Source: Chryseolinea lacunae
GTDB lineage: Bacteria; Bacteroidota; Bacteroidia; Cytophagales; Cyclobacteriaceae
Length of the DNA: 64,000 nt
NCBI RefSeq assembly: GCF_016735595.1
Contig: NZ_JAERRB010000001.1
Location: forward strand, 434,001-498,000
Direction of reading: 5' to 3'
The position numbers were made by a program, and so were the translations under genes. The notes beneath the pieces were generated by a model that was given only the letters and a program-made list of their open reading frames with translations, did not search any database and was not told the DNA's origin. Below, piece after piece: positions 6,390 to 25,849 of this stretch (positions within the stretch are counted from its first letter, which is position 1; every line of letters begins with the position of its first letter).

Positions 6390-8708
6390 TCATTCTACAA
6401 CTATTTCAATTTCTTTCTCCGTGCGCTTCACAAGCTGAATCGTAAAGGCATCTCCAGTCTTGCTGCGGGTCCATGCCACGGGTGTTTTCGTTGAGACCTT
6501 TTTGCTTCCTTCTGTAATAGCTTTGCCCTGATAGAAAACTTTCGGCTCACGTGAGGTACCATTCAAGGTTATCGAATAGGTTCTCTCCACACTGCTGCCT
6601 GCATAGTGCCCTTGCATGGCACCTACTTTCACCATGACCTTCCTATCCTTCTTGTTCCCTTCGCACGTTATGGTGGTTTTGCCTACCTCGCCTTGCTGAT
6701 ACTTTGTCGACACGCCGTCGTCTTCAAAGAGCGTAAACGTTGAGAGCGTGTCGGCAGGAAAAATTTCGAACATAAGTTGATCTGGCACGGTCGGGTCTAT
6801 CCATTCCGTTGCTTGTCGTGTCGGGATGATGGCGCCACTTTTCACGAACAGGGGCAACGTGTTGATGTCTGCTACATCGTAGGTGATGACGCCCCCGTTT
6901 TTAAAAACTTCGCCGGTGTTGTAGTCGATCCAATCATGACCTTGCGGAAGATAAATCTCCATCGTATTGAAGTCGCCATAAACAGGCGCCACCAGCATTT
7001 CATTTCCCAGCATGTATTGATACGGCCATGCATCCGACGAACAGATGTAGTCGTTCGGGAACGCCAGCAACATGGGGCGCACAATGGGCATGCCCGTTTG
7101 GTAGGTCACGTGTGCATAGGAATAGAGGTAGGGTAGCAGCCGGTAGCGCAGTTGCAGATATTTTCGTATGCTCGCTTCGGCGGTTTCGGTTTGCGTTGTC
7201 TCGGTCTTCTTCACCGCCGTGATGGTGTCTCTTCCCGTGATCCTGATCTTGTTCGTAAAATCAAACACATCGATGTTACCCGACCAGGGTTTGGGATTGT
7301 GCGATCGCGCAATAGCACTCAACGCTGTGAACTGATTCCAGCGTGCCTGCGCGCGCCAGCTTGCGGCCACCCCATCCGAACTCAAGTAGGTGTAGCCACT
7401 CAACGGCCCGAACGTGTTGTTGGTGGCCTTCAGTTGAAATCGCAGTTCATTCCACGACGACGATGCATCTTCGGTCCAGTGAAACGGATAGCGGCGGGCG
7501 CCGATCATGTTCTCCGTGGGGGCCACGCTGTAGCGAAAGTCCCAGGGGTTCAGGGCCACCGTTTTGCGGCATCCCAGAAACATCACGCGCTTGCCGGGTT
7601 GGTGTTGTTCGGTGAGGTTCCAGATGTAGCTGTCGGTAATGTCGTTGATGCGCGTGTCTTGCCAGCTACCCACAATGCCCATGTCGAGCTTTTGTTTGTA
7701 GGCGTTGTTCCAGGCAGCTTCGTCATATACCGTTTCGGTCCAGCCCTGATGTTTCCGGTTTTTAAAATCGGGCGCGCTGTGGTGAATCAGCATCACGTCG
7801 ATGTGAAGGGCTTTCAGTCTTTGAATCATCTCCTCGGGAGAGAAAGGTTTCGTGTAGCTCGATGACCAGTTCAGCGACTTTCCCCATGTGGTTTCCTTCT
7901 GCCCTTCGCAGCCATCGCCCCATTCAAAGTCGATAATCAAGTTATCGAGAGGAATGTTCTTCGCGCGAAACTGTTGCGCCACGTCCAGCAATTGCTGCTG
8001 TGTTCCATCGCAGGCGAGGTGTTGCGTTTGAAAAAAACCGTAGCCCTTGCGGGGCAATAGTGGTTCAGGACCGACGAGTGTGTTGTACTGCTCATAGATC
8101 GCGTCGTAGGATGGGCCGTAGATAAAGTACAGATCTTCCAGCACATCCTCTTCGAGGTAAACATCGGTGTAACGCTGAGTGGTGTGGTTATAGAACCAAT
8201 GTGCAAAGCGACTGTTCTTGTTCGATTCATTCAGGGCGCTAGCATTGTCGAAAAAAGTATAGCCGTCTTTGAACATGCCGTAGGCCGGTCCATCAGACGG
8301 AAAGAGTTTCTTTTTTCTATCAACCGACCACACGGTCCACGACAGGCCACGCTTGGCAATCTGCACAACGATCTTGCCGGTGTTGATGGTGAAGGTGTTT
8401 TTGTCTTCCTGTTTTGTATACGTCACTTCTTTCCACGGGGTGGTCTTTCCAATAGCAAAAGGGATGTCATACTGTACCGGAAACTTCTCCCCTTTCAAAT
8501 GCGAAATGCGCACGCGAAACATGGTGGGCGAATACAAGGAAACTTCAAGGCTATCCTGAAGCACCACTTTGGTCGAATAGAAAGTACTGGGCGATGATGG
8601 CTGGCCAAATCCAATCACACATTGAACACAGACCAACACCATCGCAAGCAATGCCTCACCTGTCATCATCATTATTTTATTACGGTTCATCATATTCTGA
8701 TTGTTCAT
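6390..8708 (-). CDS. Secreted glycoside hydrolase family 31 alpha-glucosidase-like enzyme
   Basis: The start at 8708 is chosen because its ATG overlaps the stop of the upstream GH2 gene (ATGA, translational coupling). It is followed by a signal sequence ending VIGFGQ; an in-frame ATG at 8693 is the alternative. The roughly 772-residue product has a GH31 N-terminal beta domain, then the barrel. The nucleophile region is GSWQDTRIND (Asp near residue 348) and the acid/base region is HWTEDASSSW (Asp near 413). GPLSGYTYLSSD follows. GH31 enzymes cleave alpha-linked glucose, xylose or galactose. Together with the upstream GH2 and the hydroxylysine-type fusion enzyme, removal of the alpha-1,2-glucose of Glc-Gal-hydroxylysine is a coherent guess. 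It is the last gene of the susC operon. Confidence 0.88.
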   Translation of the reverse strand: MNNQNMMNRNKIMMMTGEALLAMVLVCVQCVIGFGQPSSPSTFYSTKVVLQDSLEVSLYSPTMFRVRISHLKGEKFPVQYDIPFAIGKTTPWKEVTYTKQEDKNTFTINTGKIVVQIAKRGLSWTVWSVDRKKKLFPSDGPAYGMFKDGYTFFDNASALNESNKNSRFAHWFYNHTTQRYTDVYLEEDVLEDLYFIYGPSYDAIYEQYNTLVGPEPLLPRKGYGFFQTQHLACDGTQQQLLDVAQQFRAKNIPLDNLIIDFEWGDGCEGQKETTWGKSLNWSSSYTKPFSPEEMIQRLKALHIDVMLIHHSAPDFKNRKHQGWTETVYDEAAWNNAYKQKLDMGIVGSWQDTRINDITDSYIWNLTEQHQPGKRVMFLGCRKTVALNPWDFRYSVAPTENMIGARRYPFHWTEDASSSWNELRFQLKATNNTFGPLSGYTYLSSDGVAASWRAQARWNQFTALSAIARSHNPKPWSGNIDVFDFTNKIRITGRDTITAVKKTETTQTETAEASIRKYLQLRYRLLPYLYSYAHVTYQTGMPIVRPMLLAFPNDYICSSDAWPYQYMLGNEMLVAPVYGDFNTMEIYLPQGHDWIDYNTGEVFKNGGVITYDVADINTLPLFVKSGAIIPTRQATEWIDPTVPDQLMFEIFPADTLSTFTLFEDDGVSTKYQQGEVGKTTITCEGNKKDRKVMVKVGAMQGHYAGSSVERTYSITLNGTSREPKVFYQGKAITEGSKKVSTKTPVAWTRSKTGDAFTIQLVKRTEKEIEIVVE

Positions 8709-11700
8709 TCTACAGAAACACCTTTCAGCACAAACGAATAGCGATATTCGACAGGCTTTATTTTGTAGGCATCGTGCACCGGTGCGCCCCATGAGTTGTC
8801 GCCGCCCACGCCCATTTGTTTCAGGTCGATGTTCCAGGTCACAAAGTCGCGTTGCACCACATCATAGGAATGCTTCGACACGTTGGGCACCAGCCCCGAT
8901 GCAGACTTACCTTTACCTTCCTTAAAATCAAGTTCATCCTGACTGAAGGGCCACGCAGAGGAAGACAACAGTTGATCGTCGGTCTCCAGCTTCAATCCAA
9001 TGCCATCGGCGCTGGCAAGCGTCATCCAACGCACGTCGGTTTTGTTTCCGGTTTCCTGCGGCCTCGGATAACGATAGACCTGATCCCACAACATTCCCTT
9101 GTAGACACCCACCGCCGCGCCCGACTTCCGGTCGGCATAAGATTCGTACGGACCCCGACCATACCAGCTCATGTATTGAAACTCCTGTGGCAACGTGAGC
9201 TGCATGCCCAACCTCGGCATGTCGGGCAATGCTTTTGCCCCGGGGAGAAAATGATATTCAACCTTCACCTCTGCCAACGGACGAATTGTGTATCGCACTT
9301 CAACAGTCGACTTCACGGCAGGCAGAGAAAACGTTGACGACACAACTACTTCGCTCGCATCCTGCTTATCGATCTGACAGCTGATGAATTTCGCATTTCG
9401 TCCCGCGTCTTTCCACACGGCAGCCCAAACCTGCATGTTGTTGCCCAGGTCGTTGTCGGTTGGTGCGCGCCAGAATTGAGGGCGCAGTGGCGTGCGTAAC
9501 AGCTTTTTGTTTTTGACGGTGAAATCTGTTAATGTTCCGTCGGTCAAATTCAGGGTCACTGAAAAGTCTGCTCCGGAAACCGTAACATCTGTTTTGGTCT
9601 TCACCGTCTCCAGTTTTTCGGACGACGCCACAGGTACCGGCCGCTGTCTTTCTTTGATCACAAACTGTTCCCATGCTGTTTCAAATCCGACAGGCAAAAA
9701 GGGAACATCCGAATTAACATGCGCGCTTAGTTTGAGAATATATTCGCGTGTGTCCGTAGCCATGGATTGCGGCAATGGAATTTTCACACGTGTGCCCGCA
9801 CCGGGCAGTGCCTCAACCTTGTTCAGCCATCCTTTGGAAACTACCACGCCATCGGCCGTCAGCTGCCACTGAAAGTTCAGTCTGCTGAGATCAGAAAAGA
9901 CAAACTTATTGAGAATTTCAAACTCCCCCGCAGACGCATTCACGGCCTGGAAAGAAACCGGTTGATACACTTTCTTTACTTCAAAATAATGTGGTATCGG
10001 CTCGCGCAGACCGGTCACCAGTCCTTTGTTGATGAAGGCACCGTCGGTGGGAAGGTCGGGGTGATAGTCGTGACCGTAGGCCATATACCTCACACCTTTG
10101 CTGTTGGTGTATTGCAGGCCTTGGTCGGACCACTCCCAGATGAAGCCGCCCTGCAGCACGGGATACTTTTCGATTTCATTCCAATAGTCCTGCAGGTTGC
10201 CGCCGGAATTTCCCATCACATGAGCATATTCACACATGATGAGCGGACGCGAGGGGTTCGATTTTGCATACTCCACAATCTGTGGAATGCGGGCGTACAT
10301 CGGCGAGAAAATGTCAGTGTACGCATGCAGCTTCGCCGGCTCATAGGCCACAGGCCGTGTGTTGTCGTGCCGATGAAGCCACTGATAGGTGCTGTCAAAC
10401 ACAGGGCCGTCGCCCGATTCGTTGCCCAGCGACCAGATGATGATGGACGGATGATTCTTGTCGCGCTCGAACATGTTGCGCGTCCGGTCTTTGTGTGCCG
10501 GAAGCCAGCTCATTTCGTTACCCAGCTTCGTACTGTCGTCCAACGCCAGTGGCTGGCTCTCGATGTTTGCTTCGTCAATAACATAGAAGCCGTATTCATC
10601 CATGAGATCATACCACATCGGGTTGTTGGGATAATGACAGCCGCGCACGGCATTGATGTTGGCTTGCTTCATCAACGCAATGTCACGGAGCATGATGTCA
10701 CGGGTGATGTAATGCCCCTGGGTGGCGTGTGCTTCATGACGGTTCACGCCTTTGATTTTGATGGCCTTGCCGTTGATCAGCAGTTGCGCATTCTGTATCT
10801 GCACGGTTCTGAAACCAACTTTATCGGATATTACTTCTACAATTTTCTTGTCGGCATCTTTTAATGTGACCACCAGTGTGTAAAGCTCCGGCGTTTCTGC
10901 GGTCCACTTTCGTGGATTGAGAATGGTTTGCGGAAGGGAAATAGTGAACGGTTTGTCCGGCACAATTTGCAGGGGCTGCGATGCGTTCCAAATCGTTTTC
11001 AAATTGTTTTCATCGTCGAGCAGCGAAATGTCGGCTACTCCCTTGAAGGTTTTCGCTGTCAGATTTTTGAATTGCACATTCAACAGCAACTTGCCGTGCT
11101 GGTAAGCTTCATCCAACCCAGCCTTCACAAAGAAATCAGACACGCGCACTTTTGGTGCAGCATAGAGGTAAACATCGCGTTCGATGCCCGATACTTTCAG
11201 CATGTCTTGAGCTTCGAGGTAGCTGCCATCGCTCCAGCGGAAAATCTGGAGGGCAATTGTATTTGTTCCGGCCTTCAGGAATTTGGTGATGTTGAATTCG
11301 GCTGGTGTCTTCGAATCTTCGGAGTAGCCCACCTGGGTTCCGTTTATCCAGACATAGACGGCAGAGTTCACCGCGCCGAGGTGAAGAAACACTTCCCTCC
11401 TACGCCATGCGTCACGAAGTTCAAATGTTCTTCGATACGAACCCACCGGGTTGTAGTCTTGCGGGGCATCGGGCCAATGGGTGTCGAAGGGATATTTTTC
11501 ATCAAGGTAAATCGGGTAGTCATAACCTTCCACTTCCCAATTGGCCGGCACCTTAATATTCTCCCACGGGGTCACATCAAATTCTTCCTTATAGAAACCC
11601 TCCGGCCTGTCGGCTGGCTTCTTGGCAAAGTTGAATTTCCACAAGCCATTCAATGATTGATACCACGCAGATTTTTCTTTTTCATCCTGCACAGCCTGCT

Positions 11701-11863
11701 CCACATTGTCGTATGAAAAAAAAGTTGCGTGCGGGTCTTCCTTGTTTATTCTGAACACGGTGTGGTCCTGCCACGGATCGCGTTGTGCAAAAGCCTGAGA
11801 GAATGCAGTTACACACACGGTGAATACAAAAATCCGCGTGGCACTCGAATAAAATTTCGTCAT
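8705..11863 (-). CDS. Secreted glycoside hydrolase family 2 beta-galactosidase (LacZ-like)
   Basis: This 1052-residue protein has a signal peptide (cleavage after AFSQAFAQ) and the full LacZ-like order: jelly roll, Ig-like, TIM barrel and C-terminal Bgal_small domain. The acid/base Glu is in LGNESGDGP (near residue 481) and the nucleophile Glu in MCEYAHVMGN (near 543). The length is typical of Bacteroidota GH2 beta-galactosidases. It lies 14 bp after the kinase/phospholyase fusion and overlaps the GH31 gene by 4 bp. A likely role is periplasmic removal of beta-galactose, here possibly from galactosyl-hydroxylysine. Lactose or plant galactosides are the ordinary alternatives. Confidence 0.92.
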   Translation of the reverse strand: MTKFYSSATRIFVFTVCVTAFSQAFAQRDPWQDHTVFRINKEDPHATFFSYDNVEQAVQDEKEKSAWYQSLNGLWKFNFAKKPADRPEGFYKEEFDVTPWENIKVPANWEVEGYDYPIYLDEKYPFDTHWPDAPQDYNPVGSYRRTFELRDAWRRREVFLHLGAVNSAVYVWINGTQVGYSEDSKTPAEFNITKFLKAGTNTIALQIFRWSDGSYLEAQDMLKVSGIERDVYLYAAPKVRVSDFFVKAGLDEAYQHGKLLLNVQFKNLTAKTFKGVADISLLDDENNLKTIWNASQPLQIVPDKPFTISLPQTILNPRKWTAETPELYTLVVTLKDADKKIVEVISDKVGFRTVQIQNAQLLINGKAIKIKGVNRHEAHATQGHYITRDIMLRDIALMKQANINAVRGCHYPNNPMWYDLMDEYGFYVIDEANIESQPLALDDSTKLGNEMSWLPAHKDRTRNMFERDKNHPSIIIWSLGNESGDGPVFDSTYQWLHRHDNTRPVAYEPAKLHAYTDIFSPMYARIPQIVEYAKSNPSRPLIMCEYAHVMGNSGGNLQDYWNEIEKYPVLQGGFIWEWSDQGLQYTNSKGVRYMAYGHDYHPDLPTDGAFINKGLVTGLREPIPHYFEVKKVYQPVSFQAVNASAGEFEILNKFVFSDLSRLNFQWQLTADGVVVSKGWLNKVEALPGAGTRVKIPLPQSMATDTREYILKLSAHVNSDVPFLPVGFETAWEQFVIKERQRPVPVASSEKLETVKTKTDVTVSGADFSVTLNLTDGTLTDFTVKNKKLLRTPLRPQFWRAPTDNDLGNNMQVWAAVWKDAGRNAKFISCQIDKQDASEVVVSSTFSLPAVKSTVEVRYTIRPLAEVKVEYHFLPGAKALPDMPRLGMQLTLPQEFQYMSWYGRGPYESYADRKSGAAVGVYKGMLWDQVYRYPRPQETGNKTDVRWMTLASADGIGLKLETDDQLLSSSAWPFSQDELDFKEGKGKSASGLVPNVSKHSYDVVQRDFVTWNIDLKQMGVGGDNSWGAPVHDAYKIKPVEYRYSFVLKGVSVE

Positions 11864-11877: not shown

Positions 11878-14800
11878 TTATTGAACATGCATAACATCTT
11901 CGCGCAACACAGCCGCTATGGCATCGAGCAGGAAGTCGGCGTTGGAAGAAGAAAACACGAGTGGTGGTTTTATTTTCAGCACGTTGTTGAAGGGACCGTC
12001 GGTGCTCATCAGAATACCTTTGTCGCGCATGCGGTTGGCGAAATAGGATGCTTGCTCCGTGGCCGGTGCTTTGGTGTCACGATCTTTCACCAGCTCAAAG
12101 CCAATGAACAACCCAGGCCCGCGCACATCGCCAACAATGGGAAACCGATCCATCAGGTCGCGCAATCCCGCCTTCAGATAGTTGCCGACGAGCTTTGCAT
12201 TTTGTTGAAGACCTTCGTCTTTAATCACCTTCAGCACTTCCAAGCCAATAGCGCACGACACCGGGTTGCCGCCAAAGGTGTTAAAGTATTCCATGCCGTT
12301 CTTGAATGCATCGGCAATCGCCTGCGTGGTCACCACCACGGCCAGGGGATGGCCGTTGCCAATCGGTTTGCCAATGGTCACGATGTCGGGAACAACATCG
12401 TGTTGCTGGAAGGCCCAGAAATGATCGCCCGCTCGGCCACAACCGGTCTGCACTTCGTCGGCCAGACAAACCCCACCGGCCTCGCGCACGTGTTGATAGG
12501 CCTGCTTCAAAAAGTTTTCCGGAAGCTCCACTTGTCCACCACAGCTGATGACGGATTCAAAAATGAAGGCCGCCGGGTTTCGCCCTTGTGCCTGCATGTT
12601 CGCGATGGCTTGCTTCACATGTCCGGCATAGTGGCTCGCCACGTGCGGGTCGCCGGCGCGATATAGGCCCCGATACACATCGGGTATGGGCACGACGTGA
12701 ACGTGTGGTGCCGCGCCCTTTCCGCCCGCGCCGTCAAATTTATAGGAACTGATTTCAATGCAGCCGCCGGTGTTGCCATGATAGCCCACTTCGGAAACAA
12801 TCATGTCTTTCTGCCCCGTGTAGTTTCGGGCGAGGCGCATGCCCAACTCGTTGGCTTCGCTGCCGGAGTTCACGATGAAAGCCACGTTGAGTGGGGGTGG
12901 CATGGTTTCGAGCATGGCTTCTACGAACTTCACAATGTTGTCGTGCAGGTAGCGTGTGTTGGTGTTGAGCACGGCCATCTGTCGTTGGCCTGCGCGCACC
13001 ACACGTGGATGTTCGTGTCCCACATGAGCCACGTTGTTCACGGTGTCGAGATATCGTCTTCCGGCATCGTCGAGCAAATGAACACCGTTGCCGCGCACCA
13101 TCTTGATAGGCTCGCGATAGGAAATGCTCATGTTCTTGCCGAGGTGCTCTTTGCGATAGTCCACGATGTGTTGTGAACTCAGGCTTGCCAGTTGTTCGGA
13201 TGGCTTGCCGGTGAGCAACAACCACGGATCAGGGCAAATGCTTTTCCAGAGGGTGCGCTGGTGCGCATAAGCCACCCCGGGAAAATCGCCTTGCTTGCCT
13301 AACATGTCGAGCACGATTTGGAAGTGCAGGTGCGGGGGCCAGTTGCCGTTTTCACGACGGCCACCAACGTGACCAATCACGTCGCCGCGACGAACTGTTT
13401 TTCCCACGTTCAGCGCAGTCAACGAGTTTGTCGACAGGTGGCCATAGAGTGTGTAGAAGATCAGGTCGTCGGCTACTTTGTGTTCGAGTATTATCGTAGG
13501 ACCGTAGTCGCGTTCGGCCGCGTTGTTGGCAAAGCTGTGAACCGTGCCGTCGCACACGGCAAAGACTTCGGTTTGTTGTTGCGTGAAGAAGTCCATGCCG
13601 ATGTGAACCGTCCGCCAGGTTTGTGAATCATTTCCTTGCGTGGCAAACGCGTCCGTTGTGTAGAGCGCACGGGCTTCGTCATAGCGGCCAATGGCGAGCG
13701 TTGCATCCGCGTCGGCCATCAGGGTTTGCACTTGTTTGTCGAGCATGTCTGCATCGAGCAGGTTTTGTGAATTGCCTGCATCGAGGCTGCCCACACTCAA
13801 GTCGAGCCATGTTATGTTCTTTGCGTTCTTCACCGGGAAGTTCATGGCCTTATAGTGCGCCGACGCCCACTGCACAAATTTCTCATGTATCGTGCAGGCT
13901 TCCTTTCCGCAGGCATTCCGGAATGCATAGTGTGCCAGCTCCGGTGCAATGGCACGAAGTTTCTCCAGCAAATCCCACGCAGGCTTGTCGCTGATTTGCA
14001 GGTATTCATTTTCGGGATGCTCCACCCGGTTCAATGCTGCACAGGTTATGCTGATCAGCAATCGTGTTGCCACCAGGGAAAAAATCACAGAAAGCTCTTC
14101 GTCGGTCAGCGGACAGACGCTATTAAAACCTTTCACCACCTGACACGCCGCGTCAAGCGGATCAGGTTTGTCCATCGCGGCATAGGCAATGGCAATGGCC
14201 AGTTCGTTCACCGTGTGGGTATAGACCACATCGCCAAAGTCGATCACGCCGGGCACACGCGGGTCGGTTGCATCGTTGCTCACCAGAACATTATAATCGT
14301 TGGCGTCGTTGTAGTTCACGCTTTTGCGCAACGACGGCATCAACGGCACCACGCGTTGTTCGAACAACGTGTAGAAATGATGAACCCATTCGTTCCGTTC
14401 GCCGTCCACAACAAGGTTGAGGTGCGGCTTAATCCACATGGCTTGCGACGGGTCCCACTTCATGAAGCGATGCGCCTCTGCATGATCGAAATCAGACAAG
14501 GCAACGCATAGCTTGCCACACATCGCACCCAGCTGAATAAGCAACGCCGGGCTATGCGGATTCACTTTTGCCCAGGGTCGTCCATCCACCCACGTGAGCA
14601 GTCTCACCATGCGGGGTTGGGATGAGCCATCGGCAATCTCAAGAATGTCGCGACCGTTTTTTGCATTCACCACCGTCGACACCTGAAGGCCCACGTCTTT
14701 TGTGGCGAGGTGGTGCATCACAGCATTTTGCAACTCCAGACACCCGCGTTTCTCTTCCGCGTTGGCGATCTTTAAAATGAACGAGCGTCCGTCGGTGGCG

Positions 14801-14916
14801 CGCAGGAAGAAATTAAAATCAAGTTCGCCAGGCAAGGGTTGAACCTCCGCTTGCAATCCAAAGTTTTTCAGCACGAAGTCGGCAATCTCGGGGGAGGAAT
14901 AAGTTTTCATGGTCAT
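11878..14916 (-). CDS. Three-domain fusion: hydroxylysine-kinase-like (HYKK) + M23 peptidase-like + class III PLP phospholyase (PHYKPL-like)
   Basis: The start is set at 14916 (MTMKTYSSP; 14910 also possible). There is no signal peptide, so it is cytoplasmic. Residues 1-355 are an APH-fold kinase resembling human hydroxylysine kinase: [16 protein letters not shown], catalytic Asp in NYNDANDYN (near 204) and Mg-binding IDFGD (near 226). The usual catalytic-loop His is Tyr. Residues about 410-570 are an M23/LAS domain with complete zinc ligands (HIGMD near 439, HLHF near 530). Residues 590-1010 are a class III PLP enzyme with Lys in [10 protein letters not shown] (near 849). Its blocks [32 protein letters not shown] and LSTDGP match the AGXT2L/PHYKPL ammonia-phospholyases rather than ordinary transaminases. 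It would phosphorylate 5-hydroxylysine and split the product to 2-aminoadipate semialdehyde. Phosphoethanolamine (ETNPPL-like) is the main alternative. Confidence 0.9.
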
Positions 14917-14943
14917 CTCTTGTGGTGTTCGCGTGGGAATTCT

Positions 14944-16552: not shown

Positions 16553-19500
16553 TTAAAGACCGATGGTGATGCCTGCTACAAACGAGCGCGAGATGGGGTA
16601 AAACCCTTTATCAACGCCGCGCGAGAATTTGCCCGTGTTGGAAAGTCCCGGATCAAAGCCCATGTAGTTTGTGATGGTGAACAAATTGTAGCCGCCCGCA
16701 AAAACGCGCAGTCGGGTGAGGCCGATGTTTTCTGCCAGGGGCGCGGGAAGCGTGTAGCCAATCTGAAGGTTTCTCAATCGCACATACGAAGCGTTCTCCA
16801 GAAAATAGTTCGAGGCCGTTGTGTAGTTGCTGTTGGGGTCGGTATAGTTCAGGCGGGGAACGTCGCTCGAAGCGTTTGTCGGTGTCCACGAGTTCAACAG
16901 ATCGGGCGATGCATTGAGGCGATACATTTCCATCTTGAAGGCGTTATACATTTTGTTGCCAGCCGTGCCGTTGAACATGACGGTGAAGTCAAAATTCTTC
17001 CAGCTCGCATTGAAGGTTAAACCAAACGATGCTTTGGGCAAGCCGCTTCCAAAAGAACGTTTGTCTTTGTCGTCGATCACACCGTCGTTGTTGATGTCAA
17101 CAAATTTGAAATCGCCGGGGGCGGCGTTGGGCTGAAGCAGTTCGCCGTCTTTGCCTTTGTAGGCATCAACCTCTTGCTGGGTTTGAAAAATGCCTGCCAC
17201 TTCTTTCATATAGAACTCTCCCACCTGCGTGCCCACGGCGGTGCGCGTGGTGGCGTAGTTGTTGAACTCTACATAACCGTCGATGAACTCCTGGCCTTCA
17301 TAGCCCAACTTTGTGATTTTGTTTTTGGATGTGCCCACGTTGGCGCTGATGTTGTATTGGAAGTCGCCCGCTTCGTTTCTATACGTAGCCGTCACTTCAA
17401 GACCTTTGTTTTCGAGGTTACCCGCGTTGGTTGTGGGTGCCTTCTGAATGCCGGCCGATCCGGGCGGGCGACGTTCCACCAGCATGCCTTCCGTTTTCGA
17501 CTGGAAGTAGTCGATGGTGAACGACAGTTTGTTCTCTAACAATCCCAAATCCAACCCGATGTTGCTGGTGGTGGTTTGTTCCCATTTGATGTCGGGTGTG
17601 CCAATGCCCAGGGCCGAAGCACCGGTGGCCACCGTTTGTGGTTTCGACAATCCGAAAGGATAGTTCACGGCGCTGGGAAAATCAGGGTCGCCACTGCCCA
17701 GCGTGATCAGCGATTGATACTTGTAGTCGCCAATGCTTTGATTACCCACCACGCCATAGCTGAAGCGGGGCTTCAGCTCGCTGATGAAATCGATATTAAA
17801 AAAGCTCTCGCGGTGAATGGCCCAACCGCCGGACACGGCATAGAATGTTCCCCAACGATTTTCGGGACCAAAGCGTGTCGATCCGTCTTTGCGCACACTG
17901 CCTTCAATAAAATACTTGTTGGCAAAGCTATACGTTGCACGACCAAAGAACGACAACAGTCTGTTCTCCACAATTCCACCATAAGCATTGCGTGTGCCAA
18001 TGCCCGCATCAAGCGCAGGCACCAGCGACGACGGCAGTTCAAGATTGGAACCACCCACCGAGCGCATAACATACCGCTCGCTCGATTGGCCTAATAGCAC
18101 CGCAATGCTGTGGTCATTAAATTCTTTCTTGATGTTCAACAGGTTGTTGAAAATGGACGAGTTTATTCTGGCACGTTCCTGCCACGTGCGCGGCGTCTCA
18201 ACCGTGGCGCCGGGGCCAAAGTTGTAGGCGGGCAAGAATGTGTCGTTGTAGGTGTTCTCCGAGTTCACGCCCAGCTTGAATTGGTAAGTGAGCCACGACA
18301 ACACTTTCAAATCAGCACCCCAGTTCAACTGAAGGTAGTCATCCTGGTTCGTGTTGTTTTGCAACATCTGCGAACCAATGGGGTTGCCCGCGCCCACCAC
18401 ACCCAGCAACGGGTCCTGACCCGCATAGCCGTTGGGACTGGTGGCATCATAAATTTCTTTGTGTGGAAGCGCTGTATACAAAGACATGATGGGCGAAAAA
18501 TCGGCGTTGCCCTGGCCGAGTGCTTCCGAATAGTTCTTCAGGTCTTTGCGCACAAACGAAACGCCGAGGTTGAACTTCAAGTGATCGTGCAGCAGGTTTT
18601 TGAACTCCAGGTTCAGGCGCGAGTTGTACCGATTCAATCCGGTGTTCACAACGGTGCCGTTGTTTGAATAGTAGCCGCCCGCAAAACTATAGGTCACATC
18701 GTCGGTGCCACCGGCAATGCTCAGGTCGTGTTTTTGTTCGAGGCCTGTTTTGAAATAGGCATCGGCCCAGCGTGTGTCTGCAAACTTCGAATTGTCCATC
18801 GTCCACGTGGGGGGCGTGAGGCCCGCGTTGTTGTAGGCGTTCTGCATGATGGCGTTCTTCTGCGCCTTCGACACTGCCGACACACCGTTGAGGTTGACAT
18901 CGTTGGCGCCTACAAAAGAGTTGATGGTGATTTGCGGCTTGCCCGACTTGCCACGCTTTGTGGTGATGAGAATAACCCCGTTCGATCCGCGTGCGCCATA
19001 GATGGTGGCGGCCGATGCGTCTTTCAACACCGAGATGCTTTCGATCTCCGCGGGGTTGAGATAGGATGGTTCGCTGGGAATACCGTCGATGACATAGAGC
19101 GGCGAGCTTCCGTTGATGGTGCCCAGTCCACGGATCTGCACCACCGGTGCGGCACCCGGTGCACCTGTGGCATTGGAAACACTCACGCCGGCCACTTGTC
19201 CCTGTAAGGCATTGAGTGCATCGCCCGTCGGCACTTTCATGAAGTTGTCCATGTTGGTAGACGCCACGGCACCGGTGAGGTGACTCTTTTGTTGTGTACC
19301 AAAACCGACCACCACCACTTCCTGTAGCGCGGTGACATCCGATTCCAGCTTCACAACCAACGTGGTTTGCGCAGGCAACACGGCCACCTCTTGTGTTTTG
19401 TAGCCAATGAACGACACAACCAGCGCATTGTCTTCCTCCTTCAGCACGATTGCAAACGCACCGTTGGCGTCGGTGGTGGTGCCGTTGGTGGTGCCTTTAA

Positions 19501-19654
19501 TGACGAGATTCACACCGGGCATGGCTTCACCCGAAGTAGCGTCCGAAACGGTTCCGGTCACCGTGCGGCTCTGACCATAAACGGTTATCAGCGTACTCGA
19601 AATGAGCAAATGCAGCAGCAGCATTTTTCTCCAAATTTGTAAACCTGTCTTCAT
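16553..19654 (-). CDS. susC: SusC/RagA-family TonB-dependent outer-membrane transporter
   Basis: The 1033-residue product has a signal peptide (ending LITVYGQ), then a carboxypeptidase-like regulatory domain (TVTGTVSDATSGEAMPGVNL), the SusC plug signature (GFGTQQKSHLTGAVAS and SPLYVIDGIPS) and a 22-strand barrel finishing in VAGITIGL. It imports the ligand captured by SusD, powered by TonB. It is the first gene of the operon. Its 443-bp upstream region is shared with the divergent permease and carries a GTAGAG direct repeat in this orientation about 100 bp before the ATG. Confidence 0.96.
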   Translation of the reverse strand: MKTGLQIWRKMLLLHLLISSTLITVYGQSRTVTGTVSDATSGEAMPGVNLVIKGTTNGTTTDANGAFAIVLKEEDNALVVSFIGYKTQEVAVLPAQTTLVVKLESDVTALQEVVVVGFGTQQKSHLTGAVASTNMDNFMKVPTGDALNALQGQVAGVSVSNATGAPGAAPVVQIRGLGTINGSSPLYVIDGIPSEPSYLNPAEIESISVLKDASAATIYGARGSNGVILITTKRGKSGKPQITINSFVGANDVNLNGVSAVSKAQKNAIMQNAYNNAGLTPPTWTMDNSKFADTRWADAYFKTGLEQKHDLSIAGGTDDVTYSFAGGYYSNNGTVVNTGLNRYNSRLNLEFKNLLHDHLKFNLGVSFVRKDLKNYSEALGQGNADFSPIMSLYTALPHKEIYDATSPNGYAGQDPLLGVVGAGNPIGSQMLQNNTNQDDYLQLNWGADLKVLSWLTYQFKLGVNSENTYNDTFLPAYNFGPGATVETPRTWQERARINSSIFNNLLNIKKEFNDHSIAVLLGQSSERYVMRSVGGSNLELPSSLVPALDAGIGTRNAYGGIVENRLLSFFGRATYSFANKYFIEGSVRKDGSTRFGPENRWGTFYAVSGGWAIHRESFFNIDFISELKPRFSYGVVGNQSIGDYKYQSLITLGSGDPDFPSAVNYPFGLSKPQTVATGASALGIGTPDIKWEQTTTSNIGLDLGLLENKLSFTIDYFQSKTEGMLVERRPPGSAGIQKAPTTNAGNLENKGLEVTATYRNEAGDFQYNISANVGTSKNKITKLGYEGQEFIDGYVEFNNYATTRTAVGTQVGEFYMKEVAGIFQTQQEVDAYKGKDGELLQPNAAPGDFKFVDINNDGVIDDKDKRSFGSGLPKASFGLTFNASWKNFDFTVMFNGTAGNKMYNAFKMEMYRLNASPDLLNSWTPTNASSDVPRLNYTDPNSNYTTASNYFLENASYVRLRNLQIGYTLPAPLAENIGLTRLRVFAGGYNLFTITNYMGFDPGLSNTGKFSRGVDKGFYPISRSFVAGITIGL

Positions 19655-20021: not shown

Positions 20022-20079
20022 GTAGAGTTGTTGTAGAGGTGGCCTACACGTGGTATTGGGGAGGTCGATCCTATATTGC
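20022..20079 (+). promoter_or_regulatory. Permease promoter: GTAGAG direct repeat plus -7-like element
   Basis: GTAGAG occurs at 20022-20027 and 20033-20038 (11-bp period), again inside TGTAGAGGTGG. After 33 bp comes TATATTGC (20072-20079), a weak match to TAnnTTTG. Spacing and sequence match the susC and DUF1338 promoters. Confidence 0.7.
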
Positions 20080-20097
20080 CCATTATCTATACCGAGC

Positions 20098-21423
20098 ATG
20101 GAATCATCAGGAGAAGGTTTGAACCGGGCCATTGGCATCAAGAGCCTCGCGGCCAGCGTTGTTAATTTGACGGTGGGCGCCGGCATCTTTGTGTTGCCGG
20201 CCTTGGTGGCCGAAAAGCTGGGCCATGCCAGCACCGTAGCCTATCTCATTTGCGGCGCGCTCATCTTCATGATCATGATGTGCTTTGCCGAAGTGGGAAG
20301 CCAAACGTCGACCAGTGGCGGAATCTATAAATATGTGGAGAGTGCATTTGGTCCCTATGTGGGTTTTCTCACCAGCAACCTGTATTGGTTCGGGTTTGGG
20401 ATGATCAGTGACGCAGCCATTGCCAACGCTTTGTTCGAAATGATTGCGCTCTATGTTCCCGACATCGACACACTCTTTGGTCGATTGCTCTTTTTCCTGT
20501 TGGTGTTTGGTTTGCTGGCGTGGATCAACGTGCGGGGTGTGAAGTATGGCGCAAAAGTGATTTCGGTGCTTACACTGGCCAAACTGTTGCCCATCGCGTT
20601 GCTGTTGTTCTTTGGCTGGCCAAAGATTGACACTGCAAATCTGAGCGTGTGGGGCGACTTCGAATTTAATCATTTGGGCGAGGCTTGTCTCATTCTGTTC
20701 TTTGCGTTTGTAGGTGGCGAAGCGGCGTTGACCACCGGTGGCGAAATCAGGAATCCGAAACGCTCGGTGCCGCTGGGATTGCTTTCGGGAATTGTGATTG
20801 TAATTCTCATTTACCTCGGCATCCAGGTTTTGGCACAAGGCATTCTGGGCGCCGATCTTTCGCTCTATAAGGAAGCACCGCTTGCCCGGATCGCGACCGT
20901 TATCTTCGGAAGTGTCGGTCCCACGCTTATTGTGCTAGCCACGGCGCTGGCCATACTCGGCGCCATCAGTGGCGACATCCTGGCAATGCCCCGCTTTCTG
21001 TTTGCATCTTCAAAAGACAAGCTCATTCCCGATATGTTGTCGTCTATACACCCGCGGTTTCGCACGCCGTATATTTCCATCATCACCTACTCGTTTCTGG
21101 CCTTTGTGCTGTCGCTGTCGGGTAGTTTCAAAGGGTTGGCCATTCTTTCCAGCTCGGCCAATCTCATCACCTATTTTGCCGTGGTGCTTTCGCTGTGGAA
21201 GCTCAAGAAAAATGATCGGTTGGCCGCAGACGAGTCGGGCATACGGGTGCCGGTCTTTCTCATTCCGCTCATTCTCATCACCATGCTTTGGCTGCTCTCG
21301 CATTTATCGATTGGTGAATATGCGGCGCTCTTTATTTTTTTGCTGCTTTGCTCTCTATACTATTTCAGAAAGGCGCTTGCGCTATGGCTGAAGAAAATAC
21401 TGGTGGCGCAGCAAAGCAATTGA
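20098..21423 (+). CDS. APC-superfamily amino-acid permease
   Basis: The start at 20098 (MESSGEGLNRAIG) is chosen because the TM1 region then sits close to the N-terminus. The 441-residue product has about 12 membrane segments and the APC hallmark GAGIFVLPALVAEKLG in TM1 for binding the amino-acid backbone. It imports or exchanges amino acids across the inner membrane. It is divergent from susC and shares the GTAGAG operator with susC and the DUF1338/aldehyde-dehydrogenase operon. Hydroxylysine or lysine is therefore the most economical substrate guess, but the sequence alone does not show specificity. Confidence 0.88.
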   Translation: MESSGEGLNRAIGIKSLAASVVNLTVGAGIFVLPALVAEKLGHASTVAYLICGALIFMIMMCFAEVGSQTSTSGGIYKYVESAFGPYVGFLTSNLYWFGFGMISDAAIANALFEMIALYVPDIDTLFGRLLFFLLVFGLLAWINVRGVKYGAKVISVLTLAKLLPIALLLFFGWPKIDTANLSVWGDFEFNHLGEACLILFFAFVGGEAALTTGGEIRNPKRSVPLGLLSGIVIVILIYLGIQVLAQGILGADLSLYKEAPLARIATVIFGSVGPTLIVLATALAILGAISGDILAMPRFLFASSKDKLIPDMLSSIHPRFRTPYISIITYSFLAFVLSLSGSFKGLAILSSSANLITYFAVVLSLWKLKKNDRLAADESGIRVPVFLIPLILITMLWLLSHLSIGEYAALFIFLLLCSLYYFRKALALWLKKILVAQQSN

Positions 21424-21496: not shown

Positions 21497-21504
21497 TACT
21501 TTTG
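21497..21504 (+). promoter_or_regulatory. TAnnTTTG -7 element six bases before the start codon
   Basis: TACTTTTG is an exact TAnnTTTG match and the ATG of the TPR/HTH regulator follows after CAGCCG. Transcription would begin at or next to the start codon, giving a leaderless or nearly leaderless mRNA. No good -33 TTTG is seen at 19 bp. Confidence 0.5.
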
Positions 21505-21510
21505 CAGCCG

Positions 21511-23262
21511 ATGAAGCGTCTTCTATTTCACTGCATTTTCGTGTCATCCCTTCTCCCCTTTGCGGGCCGAGCCCAGTCGCTTCAACATCCGTGGGACGAT
21601 GCCGCAAGCCTCGCGTCGATGACGGTAGAGAAGCGCATCGAAGCCTATCTGGCCGCCGCCGACTTTTATAAAGATTCATTGCTCCTTTCCACCACCTATG
21701 GCAACCAGGCTTTACAGCTTTCTCTGGAAAACAAAAATCTTTCGCTGGAGGCCCGCTCAAAACAAACACTGGCCACCATCTATCTCGACCAGGACCTGTA
21801 TGACAAAGCGCTGATCTTTGCCTACGAAGCCCTGGCCGATTACCAAAAGCTCCGCGATGAACAAGGACAATTGCTTGCCAATGGAATTTTGGGTTGGGTA
21901 TATTACGATGCCGGGCAAACGGACAAGGCGCTTGACTTTCATCAAAAACTCTTAGCGGTCTATCGAAAAAAAGGAAGCAAAGAAGATGTGGTGTGGACCA
22001 CAAATGCGATAGGTCTTGACTACAGCCAATTGAAAAACTACAGCCTTGCGCTGAAATATTTTGAAGAGTCGCTTGCCCTTAGCCGCACCCTGAACCAGCC
22101 CGAACGCATCTCGGCAAGTCTCAACAACATCGGCATGGTGCAGACGGCGCAAGGTCTTTATCGGGAAGGCCTGGCTTCGTTGAAGGAAGGTTACCGGCTG
22201 TCTATTCAACTGGGCAACGTGCTGAAACAAGGCGAAAACCTCAATCAATTGGGGAACACGTATTACCAGATGAACAAGCTCGACAGTGCCGAATATTATT
22301 TAGCAAAAGCCCGCACCATCATCACCACATCCAAGGCCAACGCGCGGAAAGAAAAACTGATCGACAACTATGAATTCAGCACCAAAGTTTTTCTGGCAAA
22401 GAAAGATTATCAGAACGCGTTTCAGAATCTCACACTATACATGAAGCTGAAAGACGAGGTGATTTCGTTGGAGAAAAGCAACAACCTCACCAACGCGTTG
22501 ATGGTGCACCAAACACAACAAAAGGAACAGGAAATAAAACTTCTGGAAAGTGAGAACAAACTAAAAGTATTGCAGCGCGATGCCCTGGCCGGCGCCATCC
22601 TGCTGATCACGATCATCGGCGTGTTGTTGTATAACAAACAGGTGACCACACAAAAGAAAGAACGCCTGATCCTGGAAGCACAACAGGCGCTCACGCAAAA
22701 AGAACTTGCCCGCGCCTCGCTGGAGAAAGAGGCGCTCGAAAAAGAATTTCTGTTGTCGGAAGCACAAAAGCAATTGGCCCAAAACGACCTGGAGCGCGCA
22801 AACCTCGAAAAGGAAGCATTGCAGGCAAACCTCGATTTCAAAAATTCAGAATTCACCAACGCGGCCATTCACTTGTCGCAACGCAACGAGCTGATCCGTT
22901 CGTTTCTCGACGAGCTGAAACAACTGAACCTGCGTTCGCCTTCCGAATCGTCAAGCCGGATCACCAAGATCATCGACCACTTCTCGCAGGTGCAAGGCAT
23001 CAACAAAGACGCCGAAGCGTTTCACCTGAACATGGAGGCCGAATACAAAGACTTCATCTTCAAACTCACCAACCGTTTCCCCGAACTGACCGACAACGAA
23101 AAAAGATTGTGCGCGCAGATCCGGCTAAACCTTTCCATCAAAGACATCGCGTCCATCAACAACATCTCTGTGAAGTCGGTGGAGATGGCGCGCTACCGCC
23201 TTCGCAAGAAGCTCAACATGGAGCACGACGAAAACCTGGGAAGCTTTTTGAATAGTCTTTGA
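21511..23262 (+). CDS. Membrane-spanning TPR sensor-regulator with C-terminal LuxR-like HTH
   Basis: The start at 21511 opens a signal or anchor sequence (MKRLLFHCIFVSSLLPFAGRAQ). Residues 30-330 hold TPR repeats (e.g. GNTYYQMNKLDSAEYYLAKA), predicted periplasmic. A membrane helix lies at about 357-375 (LAGAILLITIIGVLLY), then a long Glu/Lys-rich coiled coil, then a C-terminal HTH (about 525-575: LTDNEKRLCAQIRLN, IKDIASINNISVKSVEMARYRLRKKL). This is a one-component regulator able to pass a periplasmic signal to DNA. It lies between the permease and the dehydrogenase/DUF1338 operon, so it is the best local candidate to bind the GTAGAG repeats. That link is inference. Confidence 0.85.
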   Translation: MKRLLFHCIFVSSLLPFAGRAQSLQHPWDDAASLASMTVEKRIEAYLAAADFYKDSLLLSTTYGNQALQLSLENKNLSLEARSKQTLATIYLDQDLYDKALIFAYEALADYQKLRDEQGQLLANGILGWVYYDAGQTDKALDFHQKLLAVYRKKGSKEDVVWTTNAIGLDYSQLKNYSLALKYFEESLALSRTLNQPERISASLNNIGMVQTAQGLYREGLASLKEGYRLSIQLGNVLKQGENLNQLGNTYYQMNKLDSAEYYLAKARTIITTSKANARKEKLIDNYEFSTKVFLAKKDYQNAFQNLTLYMKLKDEVISLEKSNNLTNALMVHQTQQKEQEIKLLESENKLKVLQRDALAGAILLITIIGVLLYNKQVTTQKKERLILEAQQALTQKELARASLEKEALEKEFLLSEAQKQLAQNDLERANLEKEALQANLDFKNSEFTNAAIHLSQRNELIRSFLDELKQLNLRSPSESSSRITKIIDHFSQVQGINKDAEAFHLNMEAEYKDFIFKLTNRFPELTDNEKRLCAQIRLNLSIKDIASINNISVKSVEMARYRLRKKLNMEHDENLGSFLNSL

Positions 23263-23281: not shown

Positions 23282-24829
23282 TCACTCCGTCATTTCCAGA
23301 TCGAACGTGATGCCTTGCGCCATCGGCAGGTTTGTTGCGTAGTTGATGGTGTTGGTCTGACGGCGCATGTATACTTTCCACGCGTCGCTTCCACTTTCGC
23401 GGCCGCCGCCGGTTTCTTTCTCGCCACCAAAGGCACCGCCAATTTCGGCTCCCGATGTCCCGGCGTTCACGTTGGCAATGCCACAATCGCTTCCCGCCGA
23501 CGACAGAAACAACTCGGCCTCGCGCAAGTCGCGTGTCATCATAGCCGATGACAGGCCTTGCGGCACATCGTTTTGCATGCGGATCGCTTCTTCCACCGTC
23601 TTATATTTCATGAGATAAAGAATGGGCGCAAAGGTTTCATGCTGCACCACGGCATAATGATTTTGCACTTCGGCAATGCAAGGTTTCACATAGCAACCAC
23701 TTTCAAAGCCTTCGCCTTCCAGCACACCGCCTTCCACTATGAACGTGCCGCCCTCGCGCTTGCATTGCGCGATCGCCGACACATAGCCTTCCACGGCAGC
23801 CTTGTCGATCAACGGGCCGAGGTGATTGGCGGCGTCCAACGGATTGCCGATGCGCAGCTGGCCGTAGGCTTTCACGAGTTTCTGTTTCATGGAATCATAG
23901 ATCGCTTCGTGCACGATGAGACGGCGTGTGGTGGTGCAGCGTTGACCGGCCGTGCCCACCGCTCCAAACACCGATGCCATCAGGGCCATGTTCAGGTCGG
24001 CTTGCTTCGAGATGATGACGGCGTTGTTTCCACCCAACTCCAACAGGCTTCTTCCCATACGTTTTGCCACGGCAACGCCCACGGCTCTTCCCATGGCGGT
24101 GGAACCGGTGGCCGAGAGCAATGGCACGCGAACGTCGTCACTCATCCACTCGCCCACTTCCTTTCCACCCATCACCAGGCAACTTACGCCTTCGGGCACC
24201 TGGTTCTTTTCCAACACGCCGGCAATTATATGTTGACACGCTACAGCACACATCGGCGTTTTTTCGGAAGGTTTCCACACGCACACATCGCCGCATACCC
24301 AAGCGAGCATGCTATTCCAACTCCACACCGCCACGGGAAAATTGAATGCCGAAATGATGCCGACAATGCCCAGCGGATGATATTGTTCATACATGCGATG
24401 TGAAGGTCGTTCGCTATGCATCGTCAATCCATAAAGTTGTCGCGAAAGGCCTACGGCAAAATCGCAGATGTCGATAATCTCCTGCACTTCGCCCAGCCCT
24501 TCTTGCAGACTCTTGCCCATTTCGTAGGACACCAGTTTGCCTAATTCAGTTTTGTTTGCACGGAACGCTTCTCCCATCTGGCGCACAATTTCTCCTCGCC
24601 GGGGCGCGGGCCACTGGCGCCATTCGTGAAAGGCGGCGGTTGCCTTTGTCATCACGGCTTCATAGGTGGCTTTGTCTGCCGACGTAACGGCGCCAATATA
24701 TTTCCCGTCTACTGGCGAATGAGACGCAATCGTCAATCCTTTGCTCTCCAGCCATTGTGTTCCGGTTGATACGCCGTGGGTATGATTTTTAAAATCGAAC
24801 GCACGCTGCCCTTCCATGGTCTTTGTCAT
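23282..24829 (-). CDS. amaB: Antiquitin-type (ALDH7) 2-aminoadipate semialdehyde dehydrogenase
   Basis: The 515-residue protein carries ALDH7/antiquitin signatures. These are FNFPVAVWSWNSMLAW (cofactor region), LLELGGNNAVI (general base Glu), catalytic Cys in GTAGQRCTTTRRL (near residue 302), and the C-terminal TSGAEIGGAFGGEK, GGRESGSDAWK and MRRQTNTINY. ALDH7A1 and AmaB oxidise L-2-aminoadipate 6-semialdehyde to 2-aminoadipate with NAD, in lysine and hydroxylysine breakdown. It follows the DUF1338 gene by 30 bp and is probably co-transcribed with it. The TPR/HTH regulator converges on it with 19 bp between them. Confidence 0.93.
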   Translation of the reverse strand: MTKTMEGQRAFDFKNHTHGVSTGTQWLESKGLTIASHSPVDGKYIGAVTSADKATYEAVMTKATAAFHEWRQWPAPRRGEIVRQMGEAFRANKTELGKLVSYEMGKSLQEGLGEVQEIIDICDFAVGLSRQLYGLTMHSERPSHRMYEQYHPLGIVGIISAFNFPVAVWSWNSMLAWVCGDVCVWKPSEKTPMCAVACQHIIAGVLEKNQVPEGVSCLVMGGKEVGEWMSDDVRVPLLSATGSTAMGRAVGVAVAKRMGRSLLELGGNNAVIISKQADLNMALMASVFGAVGTAGQRCTTTRRLIVHEAIYDSMKQKLVKAYGQLRIGNPLDAANHLGPLIDKAAVEGYVSAIAQCKREGGTFIVEGGVLEGEGFESGCYVKPCIAEVQNHYAVVQHETFAPILYLMKYKTVEEAIRMQNDVPQGLSSAMMTRDLREAELFLSSAGSDCGIANVNAGTSGAEIGGAFGGEKETGGGRESGSDAWKVYMRRQTNTINYATNLPMAQGITFDLEMTE

Positions 24830-24859: not shown

Positions 24860-25759
24860 TTAGCTGATCTTGGTGGTTTGAGAAGAGTAGGTACTCTCAA
24901 AAATCCGGTTTGCATTTTGGGCCTCAAAGCCTTCGCGCCGGTGTTGACGACCGATCTCGTTAGGAGCAAGATTGCGAAACTCCGGAAGCACGCGTCGCTC
25001 TGCGAATTCAACATACGATCCGGAGATGGTGTGTTTCTCGCCATTGGCAAATTCGGCTTCGATCATCTTGGCCACTGTTGAACTTTGCAACAACAAACCG
25101 TCGGGACTTTCTTTATACTTTCCACCCGAGTCATTCAGCACAAAGCCGTTTCGTTCCAGGAAGGCATTAAATTCCTGAATGGTGTTATAGCCCGGCTTCA
25201 GGGAATGAACACTTATAGTGAAGTGATTCAGGTAGTATTTATTGTACATCACCCAGGCCGCATACTCGCTCTCCTTGTGCAGCGCCAGATAGTCTTGCAG
25301 GGTTGGGATGCTCCAGAAGTGGCTGTGTAAAAAGGCGTCGACCTTGGCCACGTCGTTCAGGTCAAGGCTATCTACCGGGTCGCTCGTTAACGCGCCGGTG
25401 TATTTGCGGATCAGTGCTTGTGAGGCGGGCGACAAATCGTCGACGCGCAGTTCGCTGATAAAAATGCGGGGGAAATTTTCAGCGGGTGGTGCATACCAAT
25501 AGGCATTCAGTTTCTTCTCCGGAAAAAAATAGTATTCTCTTTTGGTATAGCCCAAATGAAGGAACACCTTCTCGAGCGATTGAATGCCCAGATGAGGCAC
25601 ACCCAAACTGCGGAAGGCGATGTGATCGTTTTCAATTTCATGGTCGTGCTGAATCACGCCTTCTTTCTTCATGGCGGCAATCACGGCCGACACATCCGGC
25701 ACTCTTTCTTTATAGCGGCTCATCAGGCCCTTCAGGACACCCTCCAATAGTTCGTTCAT
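24860..25759 (-). CDS. DUF1338 family 2-oxoadipate dioxygenase/decarboxylase-like enzyme
   Basis: The start at 25759 (MNELLEGVL) is preferred over the longer frame, which runs into the promoter. The 299-residue product matches DUF1338, whose member HglS is a non-heme iron enzyme turning 2-oxoadipate into 2-hydroxyglutarate in lysine catabolism. Candidate metal ligands are His46 (ENDHIAFRSLG), a His in NHFTISVH (near 178-185) and a Glu in SYVEFAERR (near 249). It is shorter than the Pseudomonas enzyme (about 460 residues from memory) and resembles the short form. It leads an operon with the ALDH7 gene and has its own GTAGAG-type promoter. Confidence 0.88.
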   Translation of the reverse strand: MNELLEGVLKGLMSRYKERVPDVSAVIAAMKKEGVIQHDHEIENDHIAFRSLGVPHLGIQSLEKVFLHLGYTKREYYFFPEKKLNAYWYAPPAENFPRIFISELRVDDLSPASQALIRKYTGALTSDPVDSLDLNDVAKVDAFLHSHFWSIPTLQDYLALHKESEYAAWVMYNKYYLNHFTISVHSLKPGYNTIQEFNAFLERNGFVLNDSGGKYKESPDGLLLQSSTVAKMIEAEFANGEKHTISGSYVEFAERRVLPEFRNLAPNEIGRQHRREGFEAQNANRIFESTYSSQTTKIS

Positions 25760-25791
25760 AATGCGGTGCTTTTTTTGGTTTGCTTTGGGAA

Positions 25792-25849
25792 CAAAGATAT
25801 CAAAGCCCGCCAAAAAACCCCTGCATTCAAACCTCTACATAGCCTCTAC
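25792..25849 (-). promoter_or_regulatory. DUF1338 operon promoter: GTAGAG direct repeat plus TAnnTTTG
   Basis: On the minus strand, GTAGAG lies at 25844-25849 and 25833-25838 (11-bp period, second copy in ATGTAGAGG). After 33 bp comes TATCTTTG (25792-25799), an exact TAnnTTTG. This is the clearest of the three shared promoters and sets the spacing rule. Confidence 0.8.

Follow-up and report, generated by a model that had tools for sequence, protein, structure and literature searches.

A 64,000-nucleotide stretch of the 7.9 Mb genome of Chryseolinea lacunae (contig NZ_JAERRB010000001.1, positions 434,001-498,000; hereafter the window) carries a SusC/SusD transporter pair, two glycoside hydrolases (GHs) and a fusion protein with kinase, peptidase and phospholyase-type domains, and the question it raises is which compound such a set of genes would serve to consume. 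We consider that the locus is probably a SusC/D-type utilisation system for the glycosylated hydroxylysine of collagen, acting through the kinase/phospholyase fusion, the dehydrogenase ALDH7 and the 2-oxoadipate enzyme HglS, with every enzymatic step predicted from gene families and context. An earlier note on this DNA had proposed the pathway, and its reading is now supported as the best explanation by independent comparative evidence.

In mammals, hydroxylysine is degraded by the kinase HYKK, the phospholyase PHYKPL and the dehydrogenase ALDH7A1. The identification of HYKK and PHYKPL in 2012 (JBC) reportedly rested on the link between bacterial fusions of this kind and the human hydroxylysine enzymes. 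The window fusion scores 1236.3 bits against NF004799/PRK06148 (cut-off 1128) and is therefore a member of that family; its nearest named relative is from Chryseolinea serpens (88%). Three Pfam domains are present, namely APH (PF01636), M23 in the middle (PF01551) and Aminotran_3 (PF00202); the earlier note had recognised the kinase and the phospholyase-type pyridoxal phosphate (PLP) domain, and had missed M23. Among 118 triple-domain homologues (the window protein and those of 117 other loci, the duplicates L079, L081, L082 and L083 having been dropped), kinase residues D217, N222, D239, G241 and D242, which we take to be the catalytic aspartate and a DFGD-type metal site, are invariant (100%), as is K863 of the PLP domain, and the M23 zinc ligands H451, D455, H506, H542 and H544 are 98% conserved. 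A peptidase domain with intact ligands (residues ~450-548) is found here within a metabolic enzyme that has no signal peptide; M23 is absent from the two 760-amino-acid kinase-lyase fusions that were scanned with Pfam (L129 and L131).

The best solved-structure match of the PLP domain is human phosphoethanolamine phospholyase (50% identity), followed by the bacterial phospholyase 5G4I, and 6TOR and 5G4I head both the sequence and the Foldseek lists, ahead of transaminases (fold model pLDDT 84.5). The possibility that the fusion is a transaminase was rejected because phospholyases are nearest by both sequence and fold. No structure named as a 5-phosphohydroxylysine phospholyase occurs among the structure matches listed, by sequence or by fold, and solved structures cannot choose between phosphohydroxylysine and phosphoethanolamine as the substrate.

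The company that the fusion keeps in other genomes was assessed from neighbour lists for 18 named loci and 120 genome stretches. At E <= 1e-100, and with shorter fusions counted, the fusion search matched 51 of 395 genomes of the phylum, 45 of 196 of the organism's own family, and 111 of 299 of another family of the same class (f7, the family of G245, spanning 236 genera), which we guess to be Flavobacteriaceae. These 111 comprise 70 triple fusions, of which those of G616, G844 and G860 are partial, and 41 other forms, namely 37 of the 760-amino-acid type as judged by length, two fragments (G640 and G657), and two proteins that match the kinase and M23 part only, at 34-35% and without the PLP domain (G612:C1:418920-420587 and G826:C1:277822-279468).

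Of the gene slots one or two positions from the fusion in the 117 other triple-fusion loci, 31 of 452 hold a beta-galactosidase (27 loci), as compared with 0 of 1027 slots further away, with split or doubled GH2 genes counted more than once; for alpha-glucosidases the counts are 21 of 452 and 2 of 1027, respectively. Slots were labelled by BLAST to seeds, of which those for GH63 and GH97 came from beside the fusion and that for GH2 from the window, and distant other GH families would be missed by this procedure. The earlier proposition that an alpha-glucosidase, a beta-galactosidase and the kinase/phospholyase belong together is borne out by this concentration. Within six genes of the fusion, 24 of the 118 loci (window included) have an alpha-glucosidase, 28 a beta-galactosidase and 20 both, while 40 have a hydroxyproline-type gene (DHDPS-like genes counted) and 63 have at least one neighbour of the kinds sought. 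On a quick tree, the GH label requires 8 changes and the hydroxyproline label 6, at least five of each by well-supported branches and with losses counted as changes, and neither label is confined to one of the two main parts. No glycosidase or hydroxyproline neighbour matching the seeds was seen in the Kiloniella loci (L014, L015, L016 and L018).

In f7 the place of GH31 would be taken by GH63, and genes for galactose and hydroxyproline enzymes are frequent additions to the locus. The recurrent order is GH63 (YgjK-like), fusion, GH2, to which some loci add SusC/SusD, an aldose epimerase (GalM), GalK, GalT and an SSF transporter. GH63 (E <= 1e-100) is found in 31 of the 299 genomes, 26 of them with the triple fusion (Fisher, 4e-14), four with another form and one with none. 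In 23 of the 26 genomes that have both, GH63 and the triple fusion are no more than 20 kb apart, where a genome size of 3.5 Mb would lead one to expect 0.3; in these and the other genome counts, gene places were transcribed manually, and genomes that are related do not count as independent observations. GH2 directly follows the fusion in L006, L007, L008 and L017 (64-66% to the window GH2) and in the more distant L092 and L093 (46-47%). In locus L129, SusC, SusD and GH63 are accompanied by a beta-galactosidase of GH42 in place of GH2; its kinase-lyase fusion lacks M23, and a D-2-hydroxyglutarate-dehydrogenase-like protein (577 bits, under the cut-off of 1350) is also encoded. L009 carries GH97. 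Co-occurrence with the fusion in other genomes holds for GH63 and GH2, and is weaker for GH31, seen as a partner only within the genus, and for HglS, which shows no genome-level correlation. An extra GH2 (39-41% to that of the window) lies upstream of the fusion in L154, L173, L175 and L157, in the first three between GH63 and the fusion. In the record of Chryseolinea serpens DSM 24574, the GH2 gene is broken into two open reading frames (ORFs; L001:13085-16243).

Many fusion loci also hold hydroxyproline genes, encoding 4-hydroxyproline (4-Hyp) epimerase (above cut-off in L165 and L097), an FAD oxidase, an aldehyde dehydrogenase (ALDH) and a DHDPS-like protein; L142 has a pyrroline-2-carboxylate reductase above cut-off and a trans-3-hydroxyproline-dehydratase-like protein under cut-off, and DPPIV is present in the fusion locus L165. 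Of the 56 triple-fusion genomes that have the 4-Hyp epimerase, 55 were used for distances (G784 was left out), and in 25 of these the two genes are no more than 20 kb apart, with 0.63 expected; for clean short kinase-lyase fusions the corresponding count is 0 of 31 genomes (Fisher, 1e-6 versus the triple fusion). The fusion therefore keeps company with enzymes for parts of collagen's glucosyl-galactosyl-hydroxylysine and for hydroxyproline, and it is because hydroxyproline catabolism is nearby that we tie the triple fusion to collagen rather than to a pure phosphoethanolamine role. In C. lacunae itself, the single 4-Hyp epimerase gene is ~78 kb from the fusion, together with DHDPS-like, ALDH, DAO, DPPIV and APC permease genes, and a relative of Xaa-Pro aminopeptidase adjoins this run. 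Elsewhere, a GH127 gene (beta-L-arabinofuranosidase family; L204:299-2713) ends a 4-hydroxyproline run and may point to plant extensin, with its arabinosylated hydroxyproline, as another source.

On the proposed pathway, SusC/SusD would import glucosyl-galactosyl-hydroxylysine, or small peptides bearing it, into the periplasm, the exported GH31 would cut the alpha-1,2-linked glucose and the exported GH2 would then cut the beta-galactose, activities that are suggested by their families. Free hydroxylysine would reach the cytosol, perhaps by way of the APC permease. From its context, the fusion kinase is predicted to phosphorylate the 5-hydroxyl of hydroxylysine, and the PLP domain to eliminate phosphate and ammonia to give 2-aminoadipate semialdehyde, which ALDH7 would oxidise to 2-aminoadipate. 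After transamination, HglS would convert 2-oxoadipate into D-2-hydroxyglutarate, and a dehydrogenase encoded elsewhere in the genome would return this product to central metabolism.

For the later steps, the window ALDH7 scores 823 bits against NF050084, L-piperidine-6-carboxylate dehydrogenase (cut-off 730), and HglS, which turns 2-oxoadipate into D-2-hydroxyglutarate (PMC7286885, in excerpt), scores 230.6 against PF07063 (cut-off 25) and is the sole match in the genome. The earlier note had stated that a 2-hydroxyglutarate dehydrogenase is not in the window, to which we add the correction that a D-2-hydroxyglutarate-dehydrogenase-like gene, 58% identical to its L129 counterpart, is present elsewhere in the genome, as is a galactokinase-family gene.

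In collagen, the sugar on hydroxylysine is beta-galactose or Glc-alpha1,2-Gal, and in animals the glucosidase belongs to GH65 (PMC8626586 and PMC11012932, both in excerpt); the abstract of PMC11012932 prints the collagen glucose as beta. The window glucosidase is a GH31 and that of the f7 loci a GH63, neither of which matches GH65, in keeping with the earlier statement that the mammalian enzyme, PGGHG, is of another family. The window GH2 scores 1084 bits against NF052611, the LacZ-type beta-galactosidase (cut-off 999), and its motifs around E482 and E545, residues that we assume to be catalytic, align to 6S6Z. The GH31 is above cut-off for PF01055, PF21365 and DUF5110, its candidate catalytic aspartates are presumably those in GSWQDTR (from 375) and HWTED (from 438), and solved chains align mainly to its C-terminal half. 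YgjK is the nearest solved relative of the one GH63 compared (L142); its natural substrate is described as unsettled (PMC9061262, in excerpt), and it has been shown with galactose at subsite +1 (PMC7263609, in excerpt). By eye, signal or lipoprotein N-termini can be recognised on GH2, on GH31 and on most of the GH63 proteins but not on the fusion, consistent with an arrangement that has the glycosidases outside and the amino-acid chemistry inside.

The window SusC is 49% and SusD 52-56% identical to those in L093, L152, L158 and L179, all of which have GH63 as the glucosidase, and other fusion-side SusC proteins outside the genus are 30-40% identical to that of the window. Relatives of its TPR/LuxR protein (29-31%) are near the fusion in L093, L143, L158 and L179. 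With respect to transporter, fusion, GH2 and regulator, the window locus thus resembles some of the GH63 loci, the alpha-glucosidase being the point of difference, and the comparison suggests that GH31 may have taken the place of GH63, or the reverse.

The genes named in the earlier note lie where it placed them, and profile scans confirmed its assignments to GH31, GH2, SusC, SusD, APC permease, ALDH7 and DUF1338 (Table 1). The minus-strand run SusC-SusD-fusion-GH2-GH31 is tight, with 18 bp between SusC and SusD, 52 bp between SusD and the edge of the fusion ORF (91 bp to the first ATG), 14 bp between the fusion and GH2, and an ATGA at 8708-8705 that is shared by the GH2 stop and the GH31 ATG; the APC permease and TPR-LuxR genes are divergent on the plus strand. 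As in SusC/D loci, SusC adjoins SusD, and the exported-looking GH2 and GH31 (signals by eye) run in the same direction. ALDH7 and HglS make up a further pair on the minus strand, set apart from the SusC run by the two plus-strand genes, a separation that corrects the earlier note.

Table 1. Genes of the proposed hydroxylysine-glycoside locus, with positions numbered from the first nucleotide of the window
Feature	Position	Strand	Basis
SusC-type TonB-dependent outer-membrane transporter	16553..19654	-	TIGR04056 above cut-off
SusD-type surface lipoprotein	15008..16534	-	PF07980 + PF14322; N-terminus lipoprotein-like by eye
APH kinase (HYKK-like)/M23/class-III PLP phospholyase fusion	11878..14955, first ATG 14916	-	PF01636/PF01551/PF00202, NF004799
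GH2 LacZ-type beta-galactosidase, signal-peptide-like N-terminus (by eye)	8705..11863	-	NF052611 above cut-off
GH31 alpha-glycosidase, signal-peptide-like N-terminus (by eye)	6390..8792, likely ATG 8708	-	PF01055/PF21365/DUF5110
APC amino-acid permease, candidate hydroxylysine importer (predicted role)	20050..21423	+	PF13520
TPR protein, C-terminal LuxR-like helix-turn-helix (by eye), candidate regulator	21502..23262	+	PF13424
ALDH7, 2-aminoadipate-6-semialdehyde (piperideine-6-carboxylate) dehydrogenase	23282..24829	-	NF050084 above cut-off
HglS (DUF1338) 2-oxoadipate dioxygenase/decarboxylase	24860..25813	-	PF07063

Beside HglS, at 25971-27134, is a gene for a DUF4407 protein, a relative of which (39-44%) sits directly beside the fusion in 12 loci (for example L147, L149, L155 and L156) and within six genes of it in 19 of the 118. 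Upstream of DUF4407/HglS, positions 27294-31077 encode a response-regulator-like protein and a Reg_prop/Y_Y_Y sensor histidine kinase.

Several findings weigh against a locus for collagen's glycosylated hydroxylysine. GH31 accompanies the fusion in only three genomes of the genus (those of the window, L001 and L080) among the loci examined; within the genus, G568 (apparently L005) has a fusion without GH31, and in G409 and G482 the fusion search gave no match. The fold model of GH31, built from three sequences, gave a pLDDT of 34.5, and the alpha-1,2-glucosidase specificity assigned to this member of a broad family is a guess. The 4-Hyp epimerase, which occurs in 152 of the 299 f7 genomes (64 of the 188 with neither kind of fusion), is equally common with the triple fusion (56 of 70) and with other forms (32 of 41; p 0.81). 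It is thus associated with both fusion types at genome level, and for this enzyme only proximity is specific to the triple fusion. A search of the C. lacunae genome for M9 collagenase gave no match, and the same search was silent in all controls too. The remaining adverse points concern HglS, saccharopine dehydrogenase, the solved phospholyases and the fusions that lack the neighbours sought, and these are taken up with the alternatives on which they bear.

The alternative that fares best holds that ALDH7 and HglS belong to general lysine catabolism and are mere neighbours, the hydroxylysine locus then consisting of SusC/D, fusion, GH2 and GH31 with the permease and regulator; it is otherwise compatible with the pathway described above, and we give it somewhat less than an even chance. 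The pair is in a separate transcription unit, and genes of the saccharopine dehydrogenase family are present in the genome, so ALDH7 and HglS may serve lysine. HglS is found in 34 of the 299 f7 genomes, and the fusion is present in 8 of these 34 as compared with 70 of 299 overall, which amounts to no association (p 0.57). However, in 4 of the 8 genomes that have both, no more than 20 kb separates HglS from the fusion, where 0.09 would be expected, ALDH7 adjoins the fusion on the same strand in L171 and on the opposite strand in L194, and the substrate of ALDH7 is the product proposed for the fusion. In L148, HglS is two genes from the fusion. Locus L171 (G586) also has a 3-oxoadipyl-CoA thiolase, a CoA transferase, a HemL-like aminotransferase and a sulfatase alongside the fusion and ALDH7, perhaps representing another pathway ending, and in G792 (C67) GH63 and HglS are ~9 kb apart with no fusion at the threshold used.

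We regard it as distinctly unlikely that the substrate is some other glycosylated hydroxy-amine or hydroxylysine compound, such as might derive from bacterial lipids or from the proteins of sponges or other invertebrates, rather than from vertebrate collagen. The record title of L012 (Offshore 40m) suggests water, but the hydroxyproline, trans-3-hydroxyproline-like and proline-peptide enzymes in some fusion loci point to a collagen-like protein of some animal.

Less probable still is a fusion acting on ethanolamine, as a kinase and phosphoethanolamine phospholyase, with an ordinary beta-galactoside/alpha-glucoside locus beside it by chance. The closest solved phospholyase does work on phosphoethanolamine, GH2 and SusC/D are, as we understand it, common in Bacteroidota, and 55 of the 118 triple-fusion loci have none of the sought GH or hydroxyproline neighbours within six genes. 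Chance would nevertheless have to account for the concentration of both glycosidase types next to the fusion in both main parts of the tree, and ethanolamine leaves unexplained the nearby 4-Hyp epimerase in 25 of 55 genomes. A plain lactose/galactoside utilisation locus was rejected, as it leaves the fusion and its hydroxyproline neighbours unexplained.

With collagen's glycosylated hydroxylysine retained as the preferred substrate, a bolder version of the proposal can be framed, which we offer as speculation with the balance leaning against it. The M23 domain may be active as a peptidase in the cytosol and release hydroxylysine from di- or tripeptides that contain Gly, in which case one polypeptide would lead from collagen peptide to 2-aminoadipate semialdehyde. 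The fusion might then anchor a modular Bacteroidota island to which an alpha-glucosidase (GH31, GH63, perhaps GH97) and a beta-galactosidase (GH2, GH42) were recruited repeatedly, with catabolism of 4-hydroxyproline, and perhaps of 3-hydroxyproline, attached as well. This collagen-specific reading of M23 is put forward because its zinc ligands are so well conserved and because the clean short fusions are without the close hydroxyproline links of the triple fusion.

If the proposed pathway is correct, bacteria would own a dedicated and widespread route for collagen's amino acid-sugar unit, with glycosidase families unlike that of the animal enzyme. The 'hypothetical' NF004799 family, a subgroup of GH63 and a GH31 would each gain a testable function; the pathway would also provide enzymes with which the glycosylation of collagen could be read or removed, and link environmental collagen breakdown to genes that can be counted in metagenomes. 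Among the open-licence publications listed as matches, none describes, by its title or the start of its abstract, a bacterial locus for glucosyl-galactosyl-hydroxylysine or hydroxylysine, in agreement with what the earlier note had said.

Comparison with known systems places the candidate locus among several of them. With the polysaccharide utilisation loci of Bacteroidota it shares the SusC/SusD pair, the exported glycosidases and an adjacent regulator, but its aglycone would be an amino acid, for which the catabolic enzyme is encoded in the locus. Hydroxyproline operons (4-Hyp epimerase, DAO, DHDPS-like, ALDH), which act on the other collagen-typical residue, are near the fusion in many relatives and, as noted, distant from it here. 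The fusion is a member of PRK06148/NF004799, a family described as 'hypothetical protein', for which the sugar and hydroxyproline context is new here. PGGHG of animals would act on the same Glc-alpha1,2-Gal-hydroxylysine bond as the window and f7 glucosidases, each from a different GH family. As for the mammalian route, the window has the same three enzyme types as HYKK, PHYKPL and ALDH7A1 in the same proposed order; however, the window version is bacterial, fuses kinase and lyase with an added M23 domain, is joined by uptake and glycosidase genes, and would continue through HglS.

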